From the NCBI GenBank assembly GCA_021848345.1, contig JAJZUV010000010.1, positions 29,417 to 93,416 on the forward strand: 64,000 nucleotides of DNA, written 5' to 3'. A program made the position numbers and the translations under genes. Of this stretch, positions 29,226 through 63,309 are shown piece after piece. The notes beneath the pieces are model-generated. The model made no database searches, was not told the DNA's origin, and saw only the letters and a program-made list of their open reading frames with translations. The DNA is from Pseudomonadota bacterium (GTDB lineage Bacteria; Pseudomonadota; Gammaproteobacteria; Burkholderiales; Burkholderiaceae_C). How positions within the stretch are numbered: position 1 is the first letter of the stretch; each line of letters starts with the position of its first letter.

Positions 29226-30113
29226 ATGCTGCGTGAAGCCCTGCGCCGCCGCGTGCGCATCGTCGCCGGCGGCGACGGCCGCGCGCCGGTGCAATACCTG
29301 CAGCCGGCCGGCGACCCCGGCCTGTTCGGGCCCGATTCGCAGACCTGGCGGGTACACGCCGACTTTCCCTCGATGATGGTCGGGGGCATCGGCGCGCTCA
29401 TGCTGCAGGCGCTGCACCCGCTGGCCCTGGCCGGCGTGTGGGACCACTCCAGCTTTCGCCAGGACCTGCGCGGGCGCCTGGCCCGCACCGCGCGCTTCAT
29501 CGCCGAGACCAGCTACGGCGGCACCGCGACCGCCGAGCAGGCGCTGGCGCGGGTGCGCGCCATCCACGCCCAGGTGCGAGGCCGCCACCCGGACGGCCGC
29601 GAATACCGCGCCGACGATCCGCGCCTGCTGTACTGGGTGCACCTGAGCGAGACCTGGAGTTTCCTGCACGCCCACCGCGTGTTCGTCGACCCCGGCATGC
29701 CACCCGCGCGCAGCGACCTCTACTTCGACGAAATGGCCCGCATCCCCATCGCGCTGGGCTGCGTGGAACAGGGGCTGCCCAACGCGCGCATCGCCCGCAG
29801 CGAAGCCCAGGCCGCCGAGGACCTGCTCGCCTACCGGGAGGAGCTGAAATTCTCCGAACGCTCGCGCTTCGTGCTCGACCTGCTGCGCCACATGCCCGCC
29901 GCCGACGCGCCCGGCGGACTGCAGCAGCTGTTCGTGCAGGCCGCGCTGCACGAACTGCCCTCCTGGGCCTACCCGATGATGCAGCTTCCCGCGCCCTCGC
30001 CGCTGCGCCGCGAGGCGCTGCGCGCCAGCATCCGCCTGCTCGCCCAGCCGCTGCGCTGGGCGCTGAAGGACGGCGTGGCCGCGCACGCGCGACGCCGCAT
30101 GGGGCGCGCCTGA
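29226..30113 (+). CDS. oxygenase MpaB family protein (DUF2236)
   Basis: FPSMMVGGIGALMLQALHPLALAGVWDHSSFRQDLRGRLARTARFI; LSETWSFLHAHRVF. Confidence 0.88.
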   Translation: MLREALRRRVRIVAGGDGRAPVQYLQPAGDPGLFGPDSQTWRVHADFPSMMVGGIGALMLQALHPLALAGVWDHSSFRQDLRGRLARTARFIAETSYGGTATAEQALARVRAIHAQVRGRHPDGREYRADDPRLLYWVHLSETWSFLHAHRVFVDPGMPPARSDLYFDEMARIPIALGCVEQGLPNARIARSEAQAAEDLLAYREELKFSERSRFVLDLLRHMPAADAPGGLQQLFVQAALHELPSWAYPMMQLPAPSPLRREALRASIRLLAQPLRWALKDGVAAHARRRMGRA

Positions 30114-30210
30114 AGCGCGCCGCCGCGCGAACCGGATCTGGCGGCCGCGGCTCCAACGGCGCCATGGAAAGCGCTGGGGGCGGGGACAAGACTCCGAGTG
30201 CTGAGCGCCC

Positions 30211-30585
30211 TCAGAATAGATAGCGGTCGATGAACACCACTCCGAGCGCCGCGGCACTGAACATGATGAGCGAATAGATGGCACGCCCGAGGCAACGATC
30301 CAGACGGTTCGTATGGGCATAGATCGCATCGCAATCGGCGAATAGGTCACCTACCGGGCTGCTGCGCCTGCGCCGGATATGGGCACGGGGCAGCGTCATG
30401 GCTGCCGCGACGCTGAAGGCCTGTCCCCATGGATAGACGTACATGCCCAGTCGCGACTGCGTGTGTGGGTTCCTGCTCAACTTGCGCACCGTGACAAGCG
30501 CGAACACACCACAGAGCAAGAAGCTCAGCAGACACCCCACCATGGACAGGATAAACAGCACCGTCATGAAGGGAAGTCGGATCAT
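30211..30585 (-). CDS. small membrane protein (124 aa), candidate immunity protein
   Basis: N-terminal TM stretch PFMTVLFILSMVGCLLSFLLCGVFALV and C-terminal IYSLIMFSAAALGVVFI; overlaps the upstream gene stop by 4 bp. Confidence 0.7.
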   Translation of the reverse strand: MIRLPFMTVLFILSMVGCLLSFLLCGVFALVTVRKLSRNPHTQSRLGMYVYPWGQAFSVAAAMTLPRAHIRRRRSSPVGDLFADCDAIYAHTNRLDRCLGRAIYSLIMFSAAALGVVFIDRYLF

Positions 30586-31571
30586 GACAGGGCATTCTGG
30601 AATGCCAGAACCTGGTCATACTGCTGACGTGTAAAGTCCTCGGCCGCCTGACCCGCCAAGATCGCTCCTGCCGCGACGGCGCCCGCGACGGCCAAGCCGG
30701 CAACGATCAGGACCCAACCCGCCGGGGTCAGCATCGCGACTGCGCTGAGGACTTCACCCGCTGCGGCAGCTCCCAAGCCCCCCGTAATCGCCGATCCACC
30801 GAATCCGGCCGCCTCGATTGCCGCCTGCCGGTGCCAATCCCCACCGGCATCGCGTACCGCGTCGACGTTTTGCGCCCGCCTGCCCAGGTCGACAACCAGG
30901 AGCCCGCGGCCCAGGTACCTGGCACAGGTCCCCAGCTTGGCGAGCATCCAGGCTTGCGTGGGTGTGCGCACGTCCAGGCGCGAGATCTTCGGACTGTGGC
31001 GCACCCGGTCCGGCACCACGACGCCGCCGGATACCAGCATCCTGGAGCGCGGGAACCAGTTTCCGGTCAGTTGCGCGAGTTCCTGCCGGAACATCTGGTT
31101 GAGCTCGGCCCCGGTGCGCCGCAGGGTGTCGCGCAGCGAGGCCCGGGGCAGGCTTTTCGGCGCTCCGTCGCGCGTGGCATGGTGGTAAGCGTCGATGGCG
31201 CTCTGGTGGCGCTCCATCGCCTTGAGGAACCGCTCCATGCGGCCCCGATATACATCGGCTCCGGCACCGAGAGTGGCCCTTCCCATCGATTCGTAGCGCT
31301 GGAAATCGGAGGTGAGCTCGGCCAGCGCCACGGTGTTCGCGCTGCCGAAGTCCTGGCACATGTCGCACAGCAGTTTGCCGTGCGGCTCCAGCATGCCGCA
31401 GTAGTCCCGTTCGTCGCTACCGTAATCGGAGCCGAGAAGATAGGGAACCTTGGGAGACAGCGAGCGCGGCTCGCGGCCGTAGCGGTCGCGCAGGCTGCCT
31501 TCGGGCACGTCGTGCCAGCGCGTGAGGGATTGCAGGTCAGAACCGTGGGGGCACATCAGGAGCGTGGGCAT
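30582..31571 (-). CDS. hypothetical protein with C-terminal glycine/alanine-rich hydrophobic segment; candidate pore-forming (T6SS/colicin-like) effector
   Basis: MPTLLMCPHGSDLQSLTRWHDVPEGSL...; C-terminal GRGLLVVDLGRRAQNVDAVRDAGGDWHRQAAIEAAGFGGSAITGGLGAAAAGEVLSAVAMLTPAGWVLIVAGLAVAGAVAAGAILAG. Confidence 0.75.
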   Translation of the reverse strand: MPTLLMCPHGSDLQSLTRWHDVPEGSLRDRYGREPRSLSPKVPYLLGSDYGSDERDYCGMLEPHGKLLCDMCQDFGSANTVALAELTSDFQRYESMGRATLGAGADVYRGRMERFLKAMERHQSAIDAYHHATRDGAPKSLPRASLRDTLRRTGAELNQMFRQELAQLTGNWFPRSRMLVSGGVVVPDRVRHSPKISRLDVRTPTQAWMLAKLGTCARYLGRGLLVVDLGRRAQNVDAVRDAGGDWHRQAAIEAAGFGGSAITGGLGAAAAGEVLSAVAMLTPAGWVLIVAGLAVAGAVAAGAILAGQAAEDFTRQQYDQVLAFQNALS

Positions 31572-32515
31572 GGCAGCTGCTTGCGTTGCGCGGCGCGGTC
31601 CGCCGACGACGCATGCAGCGTAGGCGGGCTGTATTTCCCGCATTCCCCTTGCACAGCAATGGCCAGCGACGCGTGGGGGTGCCTGCTCGCGCTCCGGGCT
31701 TGCCGAAGCAACACGCCAAGCGCGACCAGCAAGCTGCCGTCGGCCAGAACCAGCAGGGTGGCCAGGCTCCGCCAGGGATCCCACTGCGCACAGCCCACCC
31801 AGGCGACGCTTCCGACCAGCACGGCGAAACCCGCGACCATGACGCCACGCCGCCCGATGCGCGCAGGGTGTCGATGCCCCGATGGCGTCACACCCTCTTG
31901 TGCCCGCGGACGGCCGGCCAGGAGGCTCGGCCACGCCTGGGCCGCCAGGCGTCGCCGCGATTTCCTGCGCGCGCCGGCCGATTCGGCCAGGCCGCGCACC
32001 CGGTGCAACAGGGCCAGGGCAAGCGCGGTGGCCGCTCCCGCCAAGCACTGCCAGGGCGTCCACTCGCCGAGCCAGGCCAGCAGCCCGCAGCCGGCCGCCG
32101 CGAGCGACAACCCCAGCACCGTGGCGAAGCGCCGCAGGATCCCGACGCACCAGCCGATCCCCGCGCTCAGTCGGCACCACCAACGCCAGCGCTGCACCCT
32201 TTCGACGAGACCGCCGAAGGGCCGAAGAAACGCTACGTAGCCCAAGGGGCCGGCCAGGATCCTGACGAAGGTGCCGACCGCCCGGTGCGACACGCCGACC
32301 CGGCGCAGCAACATGGAGACCAGAACCACGACCAGGCCCACAAGCGCGTAGGGAACAAGCAATGACAACCAGGAGGTCCGGGCGCCGGCGCGCCTGCGCA
32401 TGCTGCGCCTCGTGCGTCGGCTGGATGGCTTGGATGGCAAGGTCGGCTCCCGCGGCGGGCCCATGCGGCCGCGCCGCGACTCGAGCCCCTTCGAATGGAA
32501 GGACGAGAAGGGCAT
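31556..32515 (-). CDS. hypothetical multi-pass membrane protein; overlaps the next gene by 16 bp (start may be internal, e.g. Met at 32403)
   Basis: Hydrophobic segments LSLLVPYALVGLVVVLVSMLL, FATVLGLSLAAAGCGLLAWL, GVMVAGFAVLVGSVAWVGCA, LATLLVLADGSLLVALGVLL. Confidence 0.6.
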   Translation of the reverse strand: MPFSSFHSKGLESRRGRMGPPREPTLPSKPSSRRTRRSMRRRAGARTSWLSLLVPYALVGLVVVLVSMLLRRVGVSHRAVGTFVRILAGPLGYVAFLRPFGGLVERVQRWRWWCRLSAGIGWCVGILRRFATVLGLSLAAAGCGLLAWLGEWTPWQCLAGAATALALALLHRVRGLAESAGARRKSRRRLAAQAWPSLLAGRPRAQEGVTPSGHRHPARIGRRGVMVAGFAVLVGSVAWVGCAQWDPWRSLATLLVLADGSLLVALGVLLRQARSASRHPHASLAIAVQGECGKYSPPTLHASSADRAAQRKQLPCPRS

Positions 32516-32691
32516 GCCGAACCCGTGCCGTCTCAGCCTACGCGAGCGCGGATTCCCGCATTTCCCGTGCGCCGCAAGGGTAGGCAGCGCGTGGGGATAT
32601 CGTGCTCAGCCTCTGCGCCAGGCGCCGAAGGCCGGCGTGGCCACGTGACCGCGCACGGGATTCGGCGCGACTCCTAGCCAGCACAAGCCTA

Positions 32692-32707
32692 CACTCTGGC
32701 CAGAGTG
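32692..32707. promoter_or_regulatory. perfect 16-bp palindrome CACTCTGGCCAGAGTG upstream of the antitoxin
   Basis: Direct reading; ends 13 bp before the antitoxin ATG (32721). Confidence 0.7.
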
Positions 32708-32720
32708 GGAGATCTGGCGT

Positions 32721-32968
32721 ATGCAAGTCAACATTCTCGAATCCAAGAATCGCCTGTCCGAACTCGTGCGGCGCGCCGCTCAGGGTGAGGAGATCGTGAT
32801 CGCCACGCGGGGGTACCGACGGTCAGGCTGGTGCCGGTGAACCCGCCCGAGCAGCCTCGGCGCGACGTGCTGGCGTGGCTGCGCAAGCATTCCGTTCCCC
32901 ACCATGCGCGCCGCGGTGCCGAGCAAATCGACGCTGGAATCCAGCAAGAGCACGACGCGTGGGACTGA
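32721..32968 (+). pseudogene. Phd/YefM-type antitoxin, frameshifted by loss of one G at 32809-32813
   Basis: MQVNILESKNRLSELVRRAAQGEEIVIATRG then shift; inserting one G restores VPTVRLVPVNPPEQPRRDVLAWLRKHSVPHHARRGAEQIDAGIQQEHDAWD-stop overlapping the toxin start. Confidence 0.85.
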
Positions 32969-33357
32969 TCTTCATCGACTCCTGCCTGGTGATCTACGCC
33001 TTCGAGGATCACCCGCTGCACGGCGAAGCCGATCGGCAAGCGTTCGCGCACGAAAACCCGGAAGACCTTGCCATCTCCCCACTGGTGATGCTCGAGTGCC
33101 TGGTAGCGCCCATTCGCGACGGCAACCTGGCTCTCCAACAGCACTACGAGCATGGCCTGCGGCAGTTCGAAATCCTGAACATGCCCGAGGAGGTCTACCG
33201 ATCAGCCGCGCAGCTACGCGGGCGATTCGGACTCAAGACTCCGGACGCGCTGCATCTTGCCACGGCGATCATGCATGGGTGTCGCGCCTTTTGGACGGCC
33301 GATGAGCGCTTGCGGCGTGCCGCCGGATCTTTTGCGTTGAACGTGCTCGCCGCCTGA
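32959..33357 (+). CDS. vapC: VapC-type PIN-domain toxin (GTG start)
   Basis: MGLIFIDSCLVIYAFEDHP...SPLVMLECLVAP...LKTPDALHLATAIMHGCRAFWTADERL; PIN acidic residues present. Confidence 0.88.
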   Translation: MGLIFIDSCLVIYAFEDHPLHGEADRQAFAHENPEDLAISPLVMLECLVAPIRDGNLALQQHYEHGLRQFEILNMPEEVYRSAAQLRGRFGLKTPDALHLATAIMHGCRAFWTADERLRRAAGSFALNVLAA

Positions 33358-33422
33358 GCAGGCCAGCCGGCGTTGCGCGGCGCACACCTGTCCTAGTGCG
33401 GCGCCGGTGAAGGGCGGCGCCT

Positions 33423-33734
33423 TCAACCGGTGCTCAGCGAGCGGCCCAGCCGGGTCTCGACGGCGTCGATCTTGGAGGCCATGCGGCTTTGGTCACCGCG
33501 TCGGTAGTCCATCTTGAGGTTCATGGTGATCCGCGGGCAGTCGCGTTCGAGTTCGTCGAAGCAGGCCTTGACCACGCCGAACACGCGATCCCAGTCGCCT
33601 TCCAGGATGGTGCCCATGGGCGTGAGCTGATAGGTCACGCCGCTGCGGTCGATGACGTCGAGGATGCGCGCGACGAAGGGGCTGACGCTCTCGCCCTTGC
33701 CGCCGGGGGCCATCGCGAATTCCAGCAGAACCAT
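33423..33734 (-). CDS. MTH1187 family thiamine-binding protein (DUF77)
   Basis: MVLLEFAMAPGGKGESVSPFVARILDVIDRSGVTYQLTPMGTILEGDWDRVFGVVKAC. Confidence 0.9.
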   Translation of the reverse strand: MVLLEFAMAPGGKGESVSPFVARILDVIDRSGVTYQLTPMGTILEGDWDRVFGVVKACFDELERDCPRITMNLKMDYRRGDQSRMASKIDAVETRLGRSLSTG

Positions 33735-33885
33735 TTCGGCTATCTCCAGGCTTGCCGCGCACCAGCGCGCGGTCCGGGCCATGCTAGCGTCGCCAGGCCG
33801 GGCCCGCAGGGCGCGCGATCATGCCCCCAACCCCGGTCGCGGTCGGTGCTTGCGCGGGCCCGGTCCCGCGCAAGCACGGCGAGGC

Positions 33886-34407
33886 TCAGGGCTGGATCTG
33901 CACGTAGCCCTGCTGCTGCAGCTCGATCAGGCGGGCCACGGCGCCGCCGTTGACCAGCACGCCGGGCAGCAGGTCGGCGTTGCCCCAGTGGTGGGCCATC
34001 ATGGACACGCGGCATTCCTCGATCTGCACGCCCTGCTTGCGCAGCCCGGCGATGATAGGCGCGTAGGGGTTGCCGGTCTTGACGTGGCGGGCCGCGTCGT
34101 AGGCCTTGTCGTTGAGCACCATGTAGGCGCCGGCGCCGTGGAACACGCCGATGATCTTGCCGGTGATGTGGTCCTTGGCGTAGCGCATCGCCAGCAGGTG
34201 CATGTAGTTCATGCCCACGGGCAGGTCGCCGACGAAGGCGCGGTGATCCATGTTGAACACCACGTCGGCGTGTTTGAGGGGTACGGGAATGTCGACGTGG
34301 ATGGGGTCGGCCGCGGCGGGCGCCGGGGCGGCCATGGCCTGGGCGCTCAGCGCGAGGGCGGCACAACCCAGCAGCAGCTGCATGGTCTTGCGAAACGGAG
34401 GATTCAT
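33886..34407 (-). CDS. secreted DsrE-family-like protein
   Basis: Signal peptide MNPPFRKTMQLLLGCAALALSAQAMA; HADVVFNMDHRAFVGDLPVGMNYMHLLAMRYAKD...IIGVFHGAGAYMVLNDKAY. Confidence 0.7.
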   Translation of the reverse strand: MNPPFRKTMQLLLGCAALALSAQAMAAPAPAAADPIHVDIPVPLKHADVVFNMDHRAFVGDLPVGMNYMHLLAMRYAKDHITGKIIGVFHGAGAYMVLNDKAYDAARHVKTGNPYAPIIAGLRKQGVQIEECRVSMMAHHWGNADLLPGVLVNGGAVARLIELQQQGYVQIQP

Positions 34408-34517
34408 CGCTTGGTTCCTGGTGGAGGCGATCGCCGAGGCGAGCGCGGATGTCGGCGCGGCACGATGCGTGCCGCGCCGCATGCCCGGTGGGCATGTGCT
34501 GCGGGGCCCGGCGCGCG

Positions 34518-35873
34518 TCAGAAGCTGACGATGGCGTACAGGTCCAGTTCGTTGCCCATGGCGGCCGCGGTGCTCTGCGCGAGCAGGCGCGCGGGGCTGT
34601 TGGCCGGGCCGATGGCCTCGGGATGGGTGATGTCCACGCGGCGCGAGAAGTAGTCCAGCACCACGCGGCTCAGCGGCGAGAAGTGGTACTGCACGCCGAC
34701 CCCGAGGTTCTTGAAGCTGCGCTCCTGCGCGGGGATGTTGGGCAGGCGGTCGTAGTAGTCGTAGCGCGCGTCGAGCTCGATGTTGCGCGTGACGAACAGG
34801 CCGCCGCTGAGGTAGTAGCCGTGCGCGGTGTTGTCGCTGCCGGGGTAGACGATGGTGTCGACCTGCGCGGGCAGCAGGCCCGGCGCCGCCACGAAGGGCG
34901 ACGGCGCGGCGATGTCCCCGCTGCCTTGCATGGTCTCGAACTTGAGGCTGCGCCCGCCCGGGACCATGTAGCCCTGGCGCAGCGTGACGCCCAGGCCGCT
35001 GCGGCGCAGGGTGCTGGCGCTGCCGTTGAGTTGCGGGCGTGCCTGCTGGTACCAGACGAAGCCGGTGAGGTCGTTGCGGAAGGCGCCGCGGCCGCCGCCG
35101 AACAGCCACGAGGCCTGCGCACGGCCGGCCACGATGGGGCCGTTGGCGGTGTCGGCCTCGAACTGCTTGCCGTACTCGCCGAGCATCAGGCCGTAGGCCA
35201 GTTCCAGCGCGGGCCGCGGGCGGAACCAGTCGGTCGCCTCGACGCCGGGGTAGCGAAAGCCGTTGTTGGTCGACATCGACGCCCCGGGAATCAGGTAGCC
35301 GCCGGCGCCGGCGCTCGCGTAATGCTGGCTGCGGGCGTAGAAGCTCGGCTGCATCAGCTGCCCGATGACGGTCGGGAACAGGGCGATGAAGCTGTAGGCG
35401 GGGTAGCCGTCCATCGCGGCCTCGGGCCCCGGTGCGCGCAGGATGCCCGCCTCCACGCGCACGCCGGGCACGTAGCCGCTGAGCAGCACGTGGCCGTCGA
35501 TCAGCTTGGGCGAATAGCCGTTGGCGTCGTGGGTATAACCGTTGTCGCCGAATTCACCGGCGACGTAGTAGTCGACGTGCGGGTTCAGGCGCCCGCCCAC
35601 CACCAGCTGGGCGCGCTGGATGGCGAGCTCGCTGCTGTGCTCGAAACCCGGGCCGACGAGGTTGCTGCGGGGCACCTGGCCGTTGCGTGCGGTGCCGGCC
35701 TGCTTGGCCGTGTAGTCGGGCTCGATCCAGCCGCTGACATGGGCCCTGCCCCAGCCCGGCGGCGATACCCCCTGGATCTCGAACCAGTTGGCGGCGTGCG
35801 CCCCGGCACACCACAGCAGGCCGCCCGCGGCCAGCAGCGCGCCGCGGGCGCGCCTGTTCCCTTGCTTGCTCAT
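34518..35873 (-). CDS. outer-membrane porin-like beta-barrel protein
   Basis: Signal peptide ...LLAAGGLLWCAGAHA; alternating beta-strand pattern; C-terminal ELDLYAIVSF terminal Phe typical of OMPs. Confidence 0.75.
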   Translation of the reverse strand: MSKQGNRRARGALLAAGGLLWCAGAHAANWFEIQGVSPPGWGRAHVSGWIEPDYTAKQAGTARNGQVPRSNLVGPGFEHSSELAIQRAQLVVGGRLNPHVDYYVAGEFGDNGYTHDANGYSPKLIDGHVLLSGYVPGVRVEAGILRAPGPEAAMDGYPAYSFIALFPTVIGQLMQPSFYARSQHYASAGAGGYLIPGASMSTNNGFRYPGVEATDWFRPRPALELAYGLMLGEYGKQFEADTANGPIVAGRAQASWLFGGGRGAFRNDLTGFVWYQQARPQLNGSASTLRRSGLGVTLRQGYMVPGGRSLKFETMQGSGDIAAPSPFVAAPGLLPAQVDTIVYPGSDNTAHGYYLSGGLFVTRNIELDARYDYYDRLPNIPAQERSFKNLGVGVQYHFSPLSRVVLDYFSRRVDITHPEAIGPANSPARLLAQSTAAAMGNELDLYAIVSF

Positions 35874-35976
35874 GTCCCCTCTCCCCTTCTTGTCGCATTC
35901 GGCTCGTCGGCCGGTGGGCCGATGCCCAGTAGGGCATCGACATGGCGGCGTCGTCTCGAGCGACGCTCGCGCATCC

Positions 35977-35998
35977 TTCATACATGTACATGTATGAA
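35977..35998. promoter_or_regulatory. perfect 22-bp palindrome TTCATACATGTACATGTATGAA upstream of the porin/DsrE genes
   Basis: Direct reading of both strands. Confidence 0.75.
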
Positions 35999-36124
35999 TA
36001 TTGGGGATGGATGATTTTTCAGATCGGGGACGGTGTCAACGTGAATGAATCGATACGTCTTAGCGGATTTTTTTCTTGATCGTGGTTGTTGATGACTATT
36101 TTCTGGTAAACCCTGTGCGGGAAA

Positions 36125-39100
36125 TCACGGCTGGGTCATCCACAGCGGTTGCCAGCCGACCAGGCCGGGGCCGACGTGCAGGCCGCTGGTGGCGGCGACC
36201 TGGAAGCCGATCTTGCCGTTGGGTGTCTGCTCGGCGCTTCCGTACACGATGGCCGAGCCGTTGCCGTTTTGCGAGATCACCGGTGAGAAGGCGATGCCCA
36301 GGCCGACCACGGGGTTGGAGGTCAGCGCGTTGTGATTGGCGTCGTAGAAGGTTCCCTTGGGGAACAGGCCCGAGGCGAGCAGGAAGAAGTCGTCCTTCGC
36401 GACCGGCGTTCCGCAGCTTGCCTGCGGCGAGACCGTGACCGGCACGACCAGGGTGCCGGCCTGGACGCGCGAAGCGTCGGTGATGGTGCCGCCGGCGTCG
36501 ACCCAGTACGGCGCGGTGGTCGAGCTCACGCCGGGATCGGTGGTGGTGGTGGCCATGGCCGTGCCCGACAGGTACCCCGAGCCGGAGGTCGAGGACCACC
36601 ACCAGGGCGTCCAGCCGGTGGTGCTCGTGGAGATGGCTCCTCCGGTGAACTTGAACACGCTCACCTGGTGGTCGCTGGTGCCCCACACGTAGATGCCGGT
36701 GGAGGTCTCGGCCTCGCCGATGAAGCGCAGCGGGCCGGCGGTGGACGCGTTCGGCACCGTGGCGATCAGCGAGGGCGCGCTGAGCTTGCTGGCGGTGCTG
36801 CCGCTGGTCAGGTCGACCGACCAGATGTTGCCCGCCGTGTCGCCGACCAGCAGCTGGCCCGCATCGGAGTTGAGATAGCTCGTGGAGGACGGCGTGAAGC
36901 CGAGCTTGACCTTGCTGGTGCTGCCGTCGTACAGGCGCATCACGTTCAGATACGAGGTGGAGCCCAGGGTGGTGAAGTAGTAGGCGTAGGCGACGTCGTT
37001 GGCGTCCCACCAGATCACCGGCGCCTGCGGAGCGCTCTGCGGCGCCGAGCTGTACCCGGCCTGGGCATCGAACCAGACGCTGGAGATGCTGGGCGTGCAG
37101 GCGCTGGTCGACGAGCTGCAACTGCTGAGCTTGAGGTCGTAATGCAAGGCTCCGCCCTCCCCGGTGCCGACCACGTAGGTGGCCCAGTTGCCGCCGGCGT
37201 CGGCGCTGTCCACGGCGGTAAGACCGCCGACCATGGTCTGCGCGTTCTGGAAGTTGGCGTAGTTCTGCAGCTGCGGCAGCAGCACCGAGGGCATCCAGGC
37301 CCACTGCAGGGTGCCGTTGCTGGAAGGACTTCCCGCGGAGATGGCGTAGAGGAATCCGTCGTTGGTGGTGAACAGCTCGAGCTGGGCGCGGCTGGAATTG
37401 GTCTGCGCGAAGCTGCGATAGCTCGTGCTGGCGAGAAAGTTCGGGTTGTTCGGGCGGCTGAGAATCAGCGGCGTGGCCGAAGGAGACGTGATGGTGCCCA
37501 GGAAACTGCCGCTGACCCGCCCGGCGAGATAGGCGCCGTTGTTGTAGGAGGGGTCGATGGTGTAGTTGATGATGTCCTGCGCGCTCGGACTGCTGGGGTT
37601 GCCGAAGGCGCTCGCCGGCTGATTGGCCAGCAGGGACACGCCGGTGCCGCTGCCCTGGTCGGTGAACAGGTCCGTGCGGCGCTGGGCCGCCGTCATCTGC
37701 AGGGTCCACGCCGGGCTGATCGAGACGTTGCCGTTGGCGTCCAGGCTGAAGGCCTGGAAAAACCCCTGTTCGCTGCCTGGGTTGTTGTTGGTCGAGAGCA
37801 GGTAGGCCAGCGCGCCGCTGTACACGTAAGGCGGCGACGCCGGAGCCGCGGCGACCTTGTTGCCGAAGATCGTGGCGGCGATCCCGCTCAGCGCGCTGGT
37901 GAACTGCTGCACGTTGTTGGCCGGGTAGACCTTGCTGGTGCCGCCGGCGATGGCCATGGCGTTGAGGGCGTAGGACGCAGCCGGGTTGACCGTCTTGTCG
38001 ACGCCGGCGCCCAGGCCGATGACGTAGGTCTTGATCCCCGCCTTGGCCAGCTTCTGGATCGCGGTGACCGCGTCCACCAGTGCCGCGTCGTTGGTGTTGG
38101 CGATGTCGAGCGCGCCCTTGGTCTGGCCGCCGGGCAGGTAGCCGGAGTCGTCGTTGATGCCGTACTGGGCATCCGGGCCGATGCCGTAGAAGGACGCGTT
38201 GACGCCGTAGCCGTGTCCGGCCTTGCTGCCCAGCGGCGGCCAGGCGTTGCCCTCGAGGTCGCTGGTGGGCAGGCCGTCGGTGACCAGGATCACGTATTGC
38301 CCCGCGCAGGAGGCGGTGAGGCCCTGGAGCAGGCTGCCGGCGCCCTGCACCAGCCCGGCCAGAGCGGACTGGCCGGCCGAGGCCTTGATCTCGGGGGTGT
38401 TGGGATTGTTGGTCTCGGCGGCCAACGCGGTCTGGAACAGGGCCAGGTTGGATGCGTACGCCGTCTGGAAGGCGGAGCTGCCGGGGGTCAGCGTGTCCAG
38501 GTTCGTGGTCATTTGCACCACGGTGGATCCCGTGGTCGAACTCTGGCCGGCGCTGTAGCCGAAGCCTCGCTGCGCGTACATGACCTGCGGCGAATAGGGA
38601 ACGTAGCCGGCGTTGGTCGGCCCTGTCATGTAGGTATTGCCGTCGGTGTAGGAGTTGTAGCCCACGCTGACCGCGCCGACCTTATAGTCGGACAGGGAGA
38701 AATAGGTGTAGGGCGTCTTGGTGGCCGTGATCGCCCCGAGGTACGTCCTGAATTTGTACGCCGCATAGGCGCCGCCATAGTCCAGCGATAGCGGGTCGGT
38801 CCCACTGCCGGCGTACAGCACGTCGTTGATGTCGGGATCGTCGCTGGACGCCGCGATCTGCATGTACTGGTCGCCGGCGAGCTCGCCGCTGGGCAGGGCC
38901 TGCGTCTGGTCGATGCCGGAGCAGTAGGTGGCGACGTTCGACGATGCGCTCGTGTAGTTGAAGCAGGGGTTGAGCACCCAGCGCGTGGCGGCGGGGTCGG
39001 CGTTGGCGTTGGCCGGGTTGTCGACGAAGTTCTGGTAGTCGGTATAGGTGGTGAAGCCGTTGGTCGGCAGGGTGCTGCGGAACTTGAAACCGTCCGACCC

Positions 39101-39577
39101 CGACATGTAGTACACCCAGGTCGACCAGTACGAGGGCGGCTGCGGGGTCTTGTAGGTCTCCAGCGCGAAGTCCATGCTCGGCAGGTACTGGTTGACCACG
39201 GTATAGATGCCGGCCTTGGCGACGTTGAGCCGGCTCGCGCTGTTGTCCACCAGGGTGCCGTTGCTCGTCTTCACCGTGTAGGGCGCGGAAGCGGAGCCGG
39301 CGGGCGCCGAGGCCGGCGGCACGAAGCCCGAGGGGATGACGTAGTTCTGCGGCGAACTCGTGTTGTACAGGCTGCTCAGGGACTTGGACAGCAGGCCCGA
39401 GCCGGTCATGATGGCGCCGCTGAGGTCGCCGTCCATGGACTGGGAATTGCCGATGGCGATGACGATCTGCGGGCGGCTGGGCGTGGTGGCGGCCGTCGCG
39501 ACGGGCATCGACCACGGGGAAAGCAGCATCGACAGGCTGGCGCCGCCGAGCACCAGGCCGCGCAGGGTCTTGTTCAT
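36125..39577 (-). CDS. pilY1: type IV pilus tip/assembly protein PilY1-like
   Basis: Position after pilX; PQIVIAIGNSQSMDGDLSGAI...; VILVTDGLPTSDLEG; C-terminal beta-propeller-like QLLVGDTAGNIWSVDLTSG. Confidence 0.88.
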   Translation of the reverse strand: MNKTLRGLVLGGASLSMLLSPWSMPVATAATTPSRPQIVIAIGNSQSMDGDLSGAIMTGSGLLSKSLSSLYNTSSPQNYVIPSGFVPPASAPAGSASAPYTVKTSNGTLVDNSASRLNVAKAGIYTVVNQYLPSMDFALETYKTPQPPSYWSTWVYYMSGSDGFKFRSTLPTNGFTTYTDYQNFVDNPANANADPAATRWVLNPCFNYTSASSNVATYCSGIDQTQALPSGELAGDQYMQIAASSDDPDINDVLYAGSGTDPLSLDYGGAYAAYKFRTYLGAITATKTPYTYFSLSDYKVGAVSVGYNSYTDGNTYMTGPTNAGYVPYSPQVMYAQRGFGYSAGQSSTTGSTVVQMTTNLDTLTPGSSAFQTAYASNLALFQTALAAETNNPNTPEIKASAGQSALAGLVQGAGSLLQGLTASCAGQYVILVTDGLPTSDLEGNAWPPLGSKAGHGYGVNASFYGIGPDAQYGINDDSGYLPGGQTKGALDIANTNDAALVDAVTAIQKLAKAGIKTYVIGLGAGVDKTVNPAASYALNAMAIAGGTSKVYPANNVQQFTSALSGIAATIFGNKVAAAPASPPYVYSGALAYLLSTNNNPGSEQGFFQAFSLDANGNVSISPAWTLQMTAAQRRTDLFTDQGSGTGVSLLANQPASAFGNPSSPSAQDIINYTIDPSYNNGAYLAGRVSGSFLGTITSPSATPLILSRPNNPNFLASTSYRSFAQTNSSRAQLELFTTNDGFLYAISAGSPSSNGTLQWAWMPSVLLPQLQNYANFQNAQTMVGGLTAVDSADAGGNWATYVVGTGEGGALHYDLKLSSCSSSTSACTPSISSVWFDAQAGYSSAPQSAPQAPVIWWDANDVAYAYYFTTLGSTSYLNVMRLYDGSTSKVKLGFTPSSTSYLNSDAGQLLVGDTAGNIWSVDLTSGSTASKLSAPSLIATVPNASTAGPLRFIGEAETSTGIYVWGTSDHQVSVFKFTGGAISTSTTGWTPWWWSSTSGSGYLSGTAMATTTTDPGVSSTTAPYWVDAGGTITDASRVQAGTLVVPVTVSPQASCGTPVAKDDFFLLASGLFPKGTFYDANHNALTSNPVVGLGIAFSPVISQNGNGSAIVYGSAEQTPNGKIGFQVAATSGLHVGPGLVGWQPLWMTQP

Positions 39578-39626
39578 GGTTCGCAGGGTTTGCATGTCCG
39601 GATCTCCCGCCTGGTGCGCGCGTCCG

Positions 39627-40169
39627 CTAGGACTGGATGCAGGCGCGGTACACCGCCTGGGTGGTCGCGGAGCCGGCCGCGGGGTTCGCGCTGGCGGTGG
39701 CCTGCACCCACACGTTGTAGAAAACCGCCGTGTACCCGGGGTTGCACAGGGTGTTGTCGACCACCCCGGTGGGCGTGACCAGTTGCAGCACCTGGAAGGT
39801 CTGGCGCCCGGTTCCGTTGGCCAGCGTGACGGTGGTGGCCTGGCAGAGATGGTTCTGCTGGCATCCGCTCCAGAAGGAGGCCGACGCGGGCTGCACGTTC
39901 TGCGTGTTGCCCACGTACCAGGCCGGGGGCGAGGCCTGGTATTCGAGCAGTCCGCCGGTGCCGATGGTCTGCGCCAGGGTGCTGCGCAGCGCGGCCATCT
40001 GCTGGTTGGCGGCGTCGCGCGCCTGCGCGCGCCACAGGTACGAACCCGAGAAGGTGTCGTTCTGCAGCGTGCGCCCGAAAATCGCCAGCAGCGCGATGGG
40101 CAGGATGATCAGGAACAGCGCGATCACCACCAGCAGCGCGGCGCCACCCTGGTTTCGTGCGGATCTCAT
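39627..40169 (-). CDS. pilX: pilus assembly protein PilX-like
   Basis: MRSARNQGGAALLVVIALFLIILPIALLAIFGRTLQNDTFSGSYLWRAQARDAA; operon context. Confidence 0.85.
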   Translation of the reverse strand: MRSARNQGGAALLVVIALFLIILPIALLAIFGRTLQNDTFSGSYLWRAQARDAANQQMAALRSTLAQTIGTGGLLEYQASPPAWYVGNTQNVQPASASFWSGCQQNHLCQATTVTLANGTGRQTFQVLQLVTPTGVVDNTLCNPGYTAVFYNVWVQATASANPAAGSATTQAVYRACIQS

Positions 40170-41356
40170 GACTGGTTCCATGCGACGTTGCGCAGATACA
40201 CGATCTGCGTGAACACCTGGTACTGCCAGGCGTTGCCGGCGGGGGGCGTGTAGGTCTCGTCCAGCACGCTCAGGCTGGCCGGGTTGTTGGTGCGCGCGCC
40301 GGTGTTGGGCTTGCGCACGACGTAGGCCACCTCGACCGCACCGACCTGGCCCTGCTGGTTGGCGCTGGCGATGCTCGACCAGGGCACGAAGGATTGCAGC
40401 TGGTTGTTGACCACCGGCGCGTACAGCGCGTGCAGCAGCACGACGTTGCTGGCCACCGGAGCGTCGCTGACCACGCTGCCCAGCGCGTTGACCACGGTGC
40501 GCCACAGGTCCGGGGTGGTGGGGGAGTTCGGGTCCGGGCGGATGCTGTAGCTGACCTGCAGCGGACCGGCGGCACCCGAGACCTGCCCGAAGTCCTGCAC
40601 ATAGGCCTGCGCCAGATCGGCCGTGGTGAGCGCGGGGCTGATGGCCGGGTTGGCCAGCGTGGACACCCCGGTGAAACCGTTGGGCGGGTTGATCACCGTG
40701 CCGTTGCCGGAGTTGTGCACGATCTGGTTGGCCGAGCCGCCGGTGCCGGTGATCTGGAAGCGGATGCAGATGTTGCGCGCGGGCAGCACCACGATGTCGA
40801 CGTCGCCGACCTGGAACACGGAGTTGTTGGAGACGAACAGCGCGGCGTTGCTGAGGGTGCCGTTGGTGGCCTTGACCACGCGCACGCTGCCCGGAGTGGC
40901 GGCGCCGCCCTGGCCGAAGTTGGCGGCGTAGAACATGGTGATGGCGTCGGTGCCGGCGCCGCCGGGGTTGGCGTAGTTGAAGGTGGTCGAGGTGCTCTTG
41001 GTTCCGGGCACGTAGCCGCCGGTGGTCTGCACCACGCCGGATACCGGCCACTGGTTGATCACCTGGGCGCTGTTCAGGTTGCTGTTGTAGGTCAGCAGGC
41101 GCGCGCAGCGGCCCTGGCCGGAGGGACCGTTCATCATGAAGCCGGCGCGCGACAGGTCGTCGGACAACAGGGTCATGGCGACGCGCGACTGGTCCTGCAG
41201 CTTGGCCGAGTCGCTGGCGCGCAGGCCGTTGGACTCCAGGCTGCCGAAGGACACGAACACCAGCAGCCCCAGCAGCGTGGCCACCGCCAGCGCGACCAGG
41301 AGTTCGACCAGCGTGAAGCCGCGCGTGCGCTGCGCCGGGGACTTGGGTGCTTTCAT
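40166..41356 (-). CDS. pilW: type IV pilus minor pilin PilW
   Basis: Prepilin N-terminus RTRGFTLVELLVALAVATLLGLLVFVSF; overlaps pilX by 4 bp. Confidence 0.9.
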   Translation of the reverse strand: MKAPKSPAQRTRGFTLVELLVALAVATLLGLLVFVSFGSLESNGLRASDSAKLQDQSRVAMTLLSDDLSRAGFMMNGPSGQGRCARLLTYNSNLNSAQVINQWPVSGVVQTTGGYVPGTKSTSTTFNYANPGGAGTDAITMFYAANFGQGGAATPGSVRVVKATNGTLSNAALFVSNNSVFQVGDVDIVVLPARNICIRFQITGTGGSANQIVHNSGNGTVINPPNGFTGVSTLANPAISPALTTADLAQAYVQDFGQVSGAAGPLQVSYSIRPDPNSPTTPDLWRTVVNALGSVVSDAPVASNVVLLHALYAPVVNNQLQSFVPWSSIASANQQGQVGAVEVAYVVRKPNTGARTNNPASLSVLDETYTPPAGNAWQYQVFTQIVYLRNVAWNQS

Positions 41357-41357
41357 C

Positions 41358-41858
41358 TCAGAATCCGTCCTGCAGCAGGTAGGTGTGCTGCACGCTGCCG
41401 CCGAAGGCCGAACGCACCGTGATGACCGCGCTGAGCTGACACGGTGCGGCGGGATTGCAGGTGCCCGCGCTGCTGCTGCCGGCGGGAATGGTGCTCACCG
41501 AGACGGCCATCAGATCGGGGTACTGACTGACCTGGGACTTCCACCAGTCCACCACCGGCGTGAGCGCGGCGTTGCTCGCCGAGGGGTTCTGCGCCGCCAG
41601 CTGCATGCCGTTGAGCGGGCTGAGCACCTGGGGATTGCCCTCGACCACCGCCAGCAGGCTTTGCGCGGTGGTGGTGGCGGCGAAGGTGCGCGAGGCTTGC
41701 GCATTGGCCACGTAGGCCTGGTTGATCAGCAGCACCAGGCCGCTGGCGGCGGCCAGGAACAACAACATGGCCACCAGCACTTCCAGCAGGGTCAGTCCGA
41801 GTTGGCCGCGGCGCGCCGTCGAAGGGCCGCGCCGCCTGGTCGCGCAAGGCAGGTTCAT
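41358..41858 (-). CDS. pilV: type IV pilus modification protein PilV
   Basis: RRGQLGLTLLEVLVAMLLFLAAASGLVLL prepilin N-terminus; C-terminal CQLSAVITVRSAFGG. Confidence 0.9.
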   Translation of the reverse strand: MNLPCATRRRGPSTARRGQLGLTLLEVLVAMLLFLAAASGLVLLINQAYVANAQASRTFAATTTAQSLLAVVEGNPQVLSPLNGMQLAAQNPSASNAALTPVVDWWKSQVSQYPDLMAVSVSTIPAGSSSAGTCNPAAPCQLSAVITVRSAFGGSVQHTYLLQDGF

Positions 41859-42349
41859 GATTGACTCGTGGTGACCACGCCTCCGCTGCTCAGCTGGACC
41901 TGCCAGTTGACGCCGCCGCCGCTGACCGTGGCGGTGGGCTTGCTGGTGCTGGGCAGCGCGCTGCAGCTCAGCTTGCCCTGCGCGTCCGTGGTGCACAGCG
42001 AGACGCTGCCGTCGCCGAGAAAGGACACGGTCTGGCCCAGCGGTTGGCAGCTCACGCCGCTGGAGCCGCCCGCCGGCGCGCTGAGCAACTGCGCGCCCGC
42101 GGTGGTGGACACGGTGTAGCCGCAACCGCTGGGGGTGAAGGTGACCAGGGTGGAGGTGCTCAGCGCGTACTGGCGCGCGTAGCGCAGCGCGTCGGCGAGC
42201 TTGTCCGCGGTGGACCTGGCGCTGGCCGCGGCCACCTGGGGCTGCAGGTTGGGCAGGGCCACGGCGAGCAGGACCGCCGCCACGGCGACGACCACCAGCA
42301 GCTCGATGAGCGTGAAACCCTGGATCCCCTCGGCGTGTCGCGCGTGCAT
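41855..42349 (-). CDS. fimT: GspH/FimT family pseudopilin
   Basis: GIQGFTLIELLVVVAVAAVLLAVALPNLQPQVAAASARSTADKLADALRYARQYA. Confidence 0.9.
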   Translation of the reverse strand: MHARHAEGIQGFTLIELLVVVAVAAVLLAVALPNLQPQVAAASARSTADKLADALRYARQYALSTSTLVTFTPSGCGYTVSTTAGAQLLSAPAGGSSGVSCQPLGQTVSFLGDGSVSLCTTDAQGKLSCSALPSTSKPTATVSGGGVNWQVQLSSGGVVTTSQS

Positions 42350-61570: not shown

Positions 61571-62413
61571 TCAGCGTCCCGTCCGCGGGGCGCAGGGCTC
61601 GACGCCGTCGAGCCAGCCCTCGCGCACCGCGCGCTGCAGCCAGGCCGCGAAGTCCCAGTCCCCACCGGCACTGCGCAAGGCCGCCTCCACGCTGGCGCCG
61701 CGCTTCAGCGCCCGCACCCAGCGGCGCTCCGCCGCCCCCAGGGGCTCGCATTGCACGCCCTCGGCGCCGCGCCAGGCCCAGGCGCACTGCGCGCCATGCT
61801 CCAGCACGAGGCGCAGGCTCTCGCCGTCCACGTCGCCGCGACGATGCAGTTGCCACAGGCCGGCTACCGGCCAGCGCGAATCCAGCACCGCCGTAGCCGG
61901 CGCCAGGCGCAGACGCAGGCGCGACGGGTCGCTGCCGGCCAGGGCTCGCAGGTCCTGCTCGGCCAGGTGCGCGGCCTCGGCGTATTGCAGTTGCCACAGC
62001 GCCCAGTCCAGGCGCGCGCTGTCGCGCGGCCAGGGCCACGGACGCAGCCGGCGCACGCGCCCCAGGTAGTCGGCAAATTCGGCGCCGATGGCGCCGAGGT
62101 CGCCCACGCGAGGCGGGCGCGCATGCCAGTAGGCGGCGCACAGCGCGCGCATGGCTTGCTCGCCCAGCATGACCGCCAGGGTCGGGAACTGCGCCATCAG
62201 CGCACGCTCGGCGTGCGAGCGCGCATTGCCGCGCATGGCGTCCAGCCCGGCCTTCCAGGCCAGGCGCCTCGTGTCCAGGTTCAGCACCGCGGCGGGCCGC
62301 GGCTCGGCCCGCGTGTCGAACAAGACACGCACCAGCGCCTGCTGGCGCAGCGACTCCCTGCGCCAGGCCGGATCGGATTCCTGCGGTTCGCCCGCGGGGT
62401 GGTTCATCACCAT
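61571..62413 (-). CDS. bufC: DUF2063-type DNA-binding/partner protein of the MNIO system
   Basis: RRESLRQQALVRVLFDTRAEPRPA...; ERALMAQFPTLAVMLGEQAMRALCAAYWHARPPRVGDLGAIGAEFADYL. Confidence 0.88.
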   Translation of the reverse strand: MVMNHPAGEPQESDPAWRRESLRQQALVRVLFDTRAEPRPAAVLNLDTRRLAWKAGLDAMRGNARSHAERALMAQFPTLAVMLGEQAMRALCAAYWHARPPRVGDLGAIGAEFADYLGRVRRLRPWPWPRDSARLDWALWQLQYAEAAHLAEQDLRALAGSDPSRLRLRLAPATAVLDSRWPVAGLWQLHRRGDVDGESLRLVLEHGAQCAWAWRGAEGVQCEPLGAAERRWVRALKRGASVEAALRSAGGDWDFAAWLQRAVREGWLDGVEPCAPRTGR

Positions 62414-62415
62414 GC

Positions 62416-63309
62416 TCACGCGACCTCGGCGCGACGCGACGCGGCCTGCGTCAGCCGCTCGCGCGCCTGCGCCGCCTGATCCAGCAGCACGGGGAGTTCG
62501 GGAATCGCCGTGTCCCATTCGATCAGCGTGGGCACCGGGCCCAGCAGACCGAGCGCGTGCTCGTAGGCCTGCCAGACCTGGGACGACACGGCGCTGCCGT
62601 GGTCGTCGATGACCAGGCCTTGCTGCACGCTGTGCCCCGCCAGGTGGATCTCTCCCACGCTGGGGCCGGCGCCGGCCTGCGCCAGTGCATCCAGCCACGC
62701 GCGCACCTCGCGCAGCGGCGAGGCCGCCCCGCGGTTGCGCGCATTGACCATCAGATTGTTCACGTCGAGCAGCAGGCCGCAGCCGCTGCGTCGGGTCAGT
62801 TCGGCGAAGAACTCGGGCTCGGGCATCTCCGAGTCGCCGAACTCGATGTAGCTGCTCAGGTTCTCCACCAGGATCGGGCGCCGCAAGCGCTCCTGCACCT
62901 GTTGCACGTTGCTTTCCAGCACGCGCAGCTGCGCGCGCGTGAAGGCCACCGGCAGCAGGTCGTTGGCATGCACCACGCCGCGCGCGCCCAGCGGCGCGCG
63001 CGCGAAGCACGCATGGTCCGACACGCGGGCGGGCTCGATGCGCTCGACCAGCGCGGCCAGGCGCTCCAGGTGCTGCTCATCCACGCCGCAGGCCGAACCC
63101 AGCGCCAGGCCCACGCCGTGCAGGCTCACCGGGTACAGGCCGCGCATGTGCCGGAGCACCTGCGCGGCCGCGTCGTCGGGGCAGAAGAAGTTCTCCGAAT
63201 GCACCTCGACGAAACCCAGCTCGGGTCGCTCGCGCGCCACCCGCGCATAGTGCGCGTGGCGTAGCCCGATGCCGGCCGCCATGGGCGCCAGCCGATTCGA
63301 GCTGGGCAT
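62416..63309 (-). CDS. bufB: DUF692 multinuclear non-heme iron oxygenase (MNIO), bufferin maturase
   Basis: GIGLRHAHYARVARERPELGFVEVHSENFF; VSLHGVGLALGSACGVDEQHLERL; SDHACFA; LLLDVNNLMVNARNRG; GEIHLAGHS; LIEWDTAIPEL. Confidence 0.94.
   Translation of the reverse strand: MPSSNRLAPMAAGIGLRHAHYARVARERPELGFVEVHSENFFCPDDAAAQVLRHMRGLYPVSLHGVGLALGSACGVDEQHLERLAALVERIEPARVSDHACFARAPLGARGVVHANDLLPVAFTRAQLRVLESNVQQVQERLRRPILVENLSSYIEFGDSEMPEPEFFAELTRRSGCGLLLDVNNLMVNARNRGAASPLREVRAWLDALAQAGAGPSVGEIHLAGHSVQQGLVIDDHGSAVSSQVWQAYEHALGLLGPVPTLIEWDTAIPELPVLLDQAAQARERLTQAASRRAEVA

Follow-up and report, generated by a model that had tools for sequence, protein, structure and literature searches.

What do the overlapping minus-strand open reading frames (ORFs) at positions 30211 to 32515 of this window (the whole 64,000-nucleotide stretch of DNA analyzed here) encode, and how many of them belong together? 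The arrangement given in the preliminary description is present: a hydrophobic ORF of 319 aa (P0003, 31556-32515), a coding sequence of 329 aa from its ATG (P0001, 30582-31571), and a coding sequence of 124 aa (P0002, 30211-30585) follow one another on the minus strand, with a 16-bp overlap between the first two and a 4-bp overlap of the third with the stop of the second. The N- and C-terminal sequences quoted for the 329-aa protein are found in its translation. P0001 is predicted to be a colicin-type alpha-pore-forming antibacterial effector, P0002, with two predicted transmembrane (TM) helices, is the putative immunity protein, and P0003, 5' of the effector gene, is probably a bystander. The reading favored here, with a probability of about 0.77, is that P0001 and P0002 are an orphan antibacterial effector-immunity pair, homologous to colicins and delivered by a type VI secretion system (T6SS); we infer toxicity, pore formation, neutralization, the T6SS route, and the function given to the N-terminal region.

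In this DNA of 72% GC, antisense ORFs of 400-800 aa occur; because they are equally long, length is uninformative, and coding was judged by conservation. Measured against L021, the nearest relative, dN/dS is 0.25 for the effector gene, 0.15 for the immunity gene, and 0.72 for the 319-aa ORF. By this measure the effector and immunity genes are under purifying selection, and the two are conserved jointly across the GTDB class. Together they have a GC content of 65.3%, compared with 71.7% for the window, which ranks them within the bottom 0.2% of windows of that size. The low-GC patch originally ascribed to all three frames therefore holds for the effector and immunity genes but not for the 319-aa ORF, which at 71.9% is indistinguishable from background. 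GC is 65-70% throughout 30000-42000, below most of the remaining window, so the zone of lower GC extends beyond the pair.

The 319-aa ORF is intact only in L021; L022 and L023 match only the tail that overlaps the effector start, and no match was found at any other effector locus. With background GC, a dN/dS of 0.72, and an intact copy only in L021, it falls outside the unit, which is therefore a two-gene pair and not the three-gene cassette first proposed. It is improbable that all three ORFs form one functional operon in which the 319-aa membrane protein is an accessory or second immunity gene. The shared strand, the 16-bp overlap with the effector gene, a coding-like third-position GC of 0.85, and the intact copy in L021 would all fit such an operon, but the base composition, the dN/dS, and the reduction to an overlapping tail or complete lack of a match at the other effector loci argue against it. 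The near-neutral divergence and weak constraint suggest that the ORF is probably a bystander to the effector-immunity pair.

The prediction for P0001 comes from its C-terminus, where residues ~206-322 (30606-30956, minus strand) are homologous to the colicin pore-forming domain in profile comparisons. This region includes a D...GGDW......E motif (residues 228-253; 30813-30890, minus strand), which aligns with the D...GNW/GDW...E of colicins, and a hydrophobic hairpin whose (T/V)PxGW turn is conserved (residues ~255-309; 30645-30809, minus strand). When the C-terminal profile was compared with 177,635 distinct PDB sequences, the only matches at E<=10 were colicin B (6.3e-4), colicin A (0.0025), and colicin S4 (0.12); with the full-length effector profile, colicins B and A rank first. 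An alignment of colicin C-termini was built from plasmid records and contains colicins E1, K, Ia, Ib, B, and S4 as well as colicin-like proteins. Comparison of the effector family to this alignment by hhalign gave a probability of 91% and a score of 50.8 (44.7 for the C-terminus alone), far above the controls: at most 18.1 over 100 column shuffles, 25-29 for reversed alignments, and 14.7 for the immunity family. The hhalign E-value refers to a single comparison, and therefore the controls weigh more than the number. The conserved D228 and W246 of the family, with their surroundings, align on the colicin D...G(D/N)W...E and are followed by the hydrophobic hairpin, and family-averaged hydropathy peaks at ~257-307 with the conserved TPxGW turn. 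The PDB matches and the margin over the hhalign controls support the earlier proposal of a colicin-like pore-forming effector for the 329-aa protein. By homology the effector contains a colicin-type pore region, and its mode of action is probably that of a T6SS pore-former; its assignment to the T6SS rests on co-occurrence.

The colicin similarity is visible only at the profile level; no Pfam or NCBIfam colicin model is listed for any of 22 family members. Scans of the window proteins with Pfam, NCBIfam, and PADLOC gave no credible match for the effector or the immunity protein, and Pfam and NCBIfam scans of the two families gave none either. The AlphaFold2 model of the effector has helices at 246-279 and 285-328, with low confidence; mean pLDDT is 66, falling below 50 in the hairpin, and the best Foldseek match has an E-value of 0.15, with no colicin among the matches. 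The BTH_I2691 T6SS effector family, whose model we take to be VasX-like, was rejected: P0001 scores 5.9 bits against an NCBIfam cut-off of 150, and family members have E-values of 0.76-3.7. A search of the genus for VasX-like BTH_I2691 relatives found none.

The N-terminal domain (residues 1-75; 31347-31571, minus strand), with the pattern xxLLCx...PYLLG, is conserved and confidently modeled and has no recognized homology, including to any recognized T6SS loading domain. It is a candidate delivery or loading domain. LysM, hinted at by the secondary structure of the model, was rejected as its identity, since the hhalign score of 13.4 is within that of shuffles (up to 14.9). No signal peptide was recognized in the effector family by inspection, and neither the receptor-binding nor the translocation domains of colicins were recognized in the 329-aa protein with Pfam and NCBIfam. 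A protein at L062 (6663-7643, minus strand) has a related C-terminus joined to a LysM-like N-terminus (E 0.0034 against LysM, below the cut-off) and is followed by a different small membrane-like gene. This architecture suggests that the N-terminal modules may be swappable.

The hydrophobic segments of P0002 lie at residues ~9-27 and ~102-120. By charge alone, positive residues between the two helices suggest a topology in which this loop would be cytoplasmic and both ends outside. The immunity family has no match among PDB sequences, and Foldseek found none for the model. The role of inner-membrane immunity partner already suggested for the 124-aa protein gains support from gene order: where effector copies are recognizable and have enough downstream sequence, one to three P0002 homologs lie directly 3' of the effector gene, often as tandem paralogs. 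Distances between effectors and their first downstream immunity proteins are correlated (Mantel r=0.47, p=2e-4). In the diverged loci L075 and L117 the proteins encoded downstream cannot be aligned clearly with P0002, yet the size and two-TM layout are kept. At L075 (8491-10987) an effector relative is followed by three tandem paralogs of ~120 aa, each with two TM segments and barely alignable with P0002, possibly a diverged polyimmunity array.

Effector homologs are found in Thiomonas relatives, including Thiomonas sp. FB-6, which shares a genus with the source bacterium, and elsewhere in the class, with identity falling to ~20-25%. Pseudoalteromonas sp. THAF3 has a full-length effector relative with a profile match of 99.9%; the Pseudoalteromonas pair, WP_138510501.1 and WP_138510499.1, is annotated as hypothetical proteins only. 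Effector-immunity units are repeated at L064/L024 and L065/L025. The nearest effector relative (L021, 8001-8879) has an in-frame gap of ~36 residues in the N-terminal domain, and behind its immunity gene lies a second immunity paralog with 52% identity. The weak class matches L011-L015 (E 0.002-0.01) were excluded from the family; of those inspected, L013 looks like a transporter of the MFS type, and the family motif is missing from L012 and L015.

In the window the pair is flanked by a gene for a thiamine-binding protein (33423-33782) and by a gene at 29226-30113, which is presumably a DUF2236 gene. An empty site is found in genome G757, where both flanking genes are ~0.7 kb apart and the pair is absent, the G757 copies being located elsewhere. 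The low-GC island and this empty site are the pattern of an island that is mobile or repeatedly gained and lost. Antagonism systems typically show tandem immunity genes, effector-immunity repeats, and mobile orphan loci. The corresponding chromosomal site of FB-6 (L023, 8001-8983, the same locus as L110) has a frameshifted effector gene and an immunity gene that is still open; a second, intact effector copy lies elsewhere in that genome (L022). Beside the pair in the window, 32721-33357 on the plus strand holds a VapBC/Phd-like module, a PIN-domain gene preceded by an antitoxin-like ORF. The latter is apparently frameshifted after ~39 codons, which may reflect either true decay or an error in the assembly.

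The delivery route was initially left open, as no VgrG was visible in the window. None is present on its contig (C30) either, and the three VgrGs of the genome are on C22, C25, and C47. The genome also has TssC on C22 and C31, and Hcp together with VgrG on C22. The second VipB/TssC (L052; C31 of genome G000, ~61695-62594) is among housekeeping-looking genes. The route can now be narrowed, since effector presence tracks T6SS presence. With VipB/TssC as the T6SS marker, the class sample comprised 10 genomes with credible effector homologs and 359 others, and the marker was found in 9 of the 10 compared with 62 of the 359 (p=2e-6); within the genus, a T6SS is present in 7/7 effector-positive genomes and 7/18 others (p=0.007), with genomes treated as independent and the window's own genome counted among the positives. 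The Pseudoalteromonas replicon bearing the full-length effector relative also encodes VipB. VirB4 was found in none of the 10 effector-positive genomes, and a type IV secretion system was rejected as the carrier. Co-occurrence thus makes delivery of the effector by a T6SS likely. Genome G197, which is 99% complete, has two effector-immunity loci (L054, L056) and no detected VipB/TssC; another delivery route, loss of the T6SS, or an assembly gap are possible explanations. Among the effector neighbors inspected, no T6SS gene was found except one VgrG ~6 kb away in L070.

It is unlikely that the same pore-forming pair is released or delivered otherwise, whether by bacteriocin-like release, type I secretion, or another contact system. 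Colicins are themselves released bacteriocins, T6SS genes do not adjoin the effector loci apart from the VgrG near L070, and VipB is undetected in G197 despite its two effector copies, all of which would suit such a route; co-occurrence with the T6SS at the level of the class and again inside the genus, the 0/10 count for VirB4, and the size of the protein, as 329 aa leave little space for colicin receptor-binding and translocation domains, weigh against it. Far less credible is an intracellular role, in which the two genes would be a toxin-antitoxin or membrane-stress module and no weapon against neighbors. In favor of such a module, the pair is compact and overlapping and its contig has no VgrG; against it, colicin pore domains work from the periplasmic side, antagonism typically involves tandem diverged immunity arrays and orphan loci that are mobile, and effector presence co-occurs with the T6SS.

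A T6SS effector could still belong to a described family, and the closest in size and orphan genetics is Ssp4-Sip4 of Serratia marcescens, which resembles the present pair in an effector of ~330 aa, an orphan locus, and a small downstream gene for an immunity protein that is integral to the membrane (PMC12669606). Orphan effectors such as Ssp4 often have no linkage to T6SS genes (PMC12669606). That the present pair is a distant branch of this pore-former family is doubtful, on a comparison made by description only. Ssp4 has 331 aa, with an N-terminal domain of ~113 aa ahead of a helical membrane region, and its relatives occur in marine Gammaproteobacteria (PMC12669606); Sip4, however, is a protein of at least 145 residues with four TM helices, while P0002 has 124 residues and, like its family, two TM helices. 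As far as such descriptions allow, the family of P0001 and P0002 appears to be undescribed and set apart from Ssp4-Sip4.

Comparison with other known systems is consistent with the orphan, colicin-homologous pair. Colicins A, B, and S4 share with P0001 the homologous C-terminal region, with the D...G(D/N)W...E motif and then the hydrophobic hairpin, and have an inner-membrane immunity protein encoded next door. In contrast to these colicins, the present effector is chromosomal and without recognizable receptor or translocation domains, its immunity gene is downstream on the same strand where the colicin arrangement is convergent, and the two-TM immunity family has no detected similarity to known families. 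TseC from Aeromonas, with a colicin-like domain, and the colicin-like VasX from Vibrio cholerae are T6SS effectors to which activity of the colicin type and a cognate immunity protein are ascribed (PMC8668125, PMC6099711, PMC9558359). TseC, compared here by description, is VgrG-associated and has a DUF4123 chaperone, in contrast to the short, orphan genes of the present pair. A review reports that neither Tse4 nor Ssp6 is homologous to colicins (PMC9558359). Tse4-Tsi4 and Ssp6-Sip6 resemble the present pair in the proposed outcome, loss of membrane potential; Sip6 differs in being an outer-membrane protein.

The proposed mechanism would begin with loading of the effector onto a T6SS whose genes lie elsewhere in the genome, for which the conserved N-terminal region is the candidate loading domain. 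The effector would be delivered into the periplasm of a neighbor, where its C-terminal region, distantly homologous to the hydrophobic hairpin of the colicin pore domain and the helices that surround it, would enter the inner membrane and depolarize the cell. In the producer, the 124-aa two-helix protein would reside in the inner membrane and block either insertion or pore assembly. A broader proposal, that these proteins are a separate, undescribed family of compact T6SS effectors whose pore module shares its ancestry with that of colicins, with a new N-terminal T6SS loading domain attached and a new two-helix immunity family, accumulating in tandem polyimmunity arrays, as the counterpart, is tentative and falls somewhat short of an even chance.

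Few T6SS pore-formers have been described. A short family with measurable homology to colicins would connect released bacteriocins with injected effectors, and work on the mechanism of colicins could then be applied directly to it. The two-helix immunity protein would offer a simple case for studying how a pore is neutralized, and proteins now listed as hypothetical, such as WP_138510501.1 and WP_138510499.1 from Pseudoalteromonas, would receive names.
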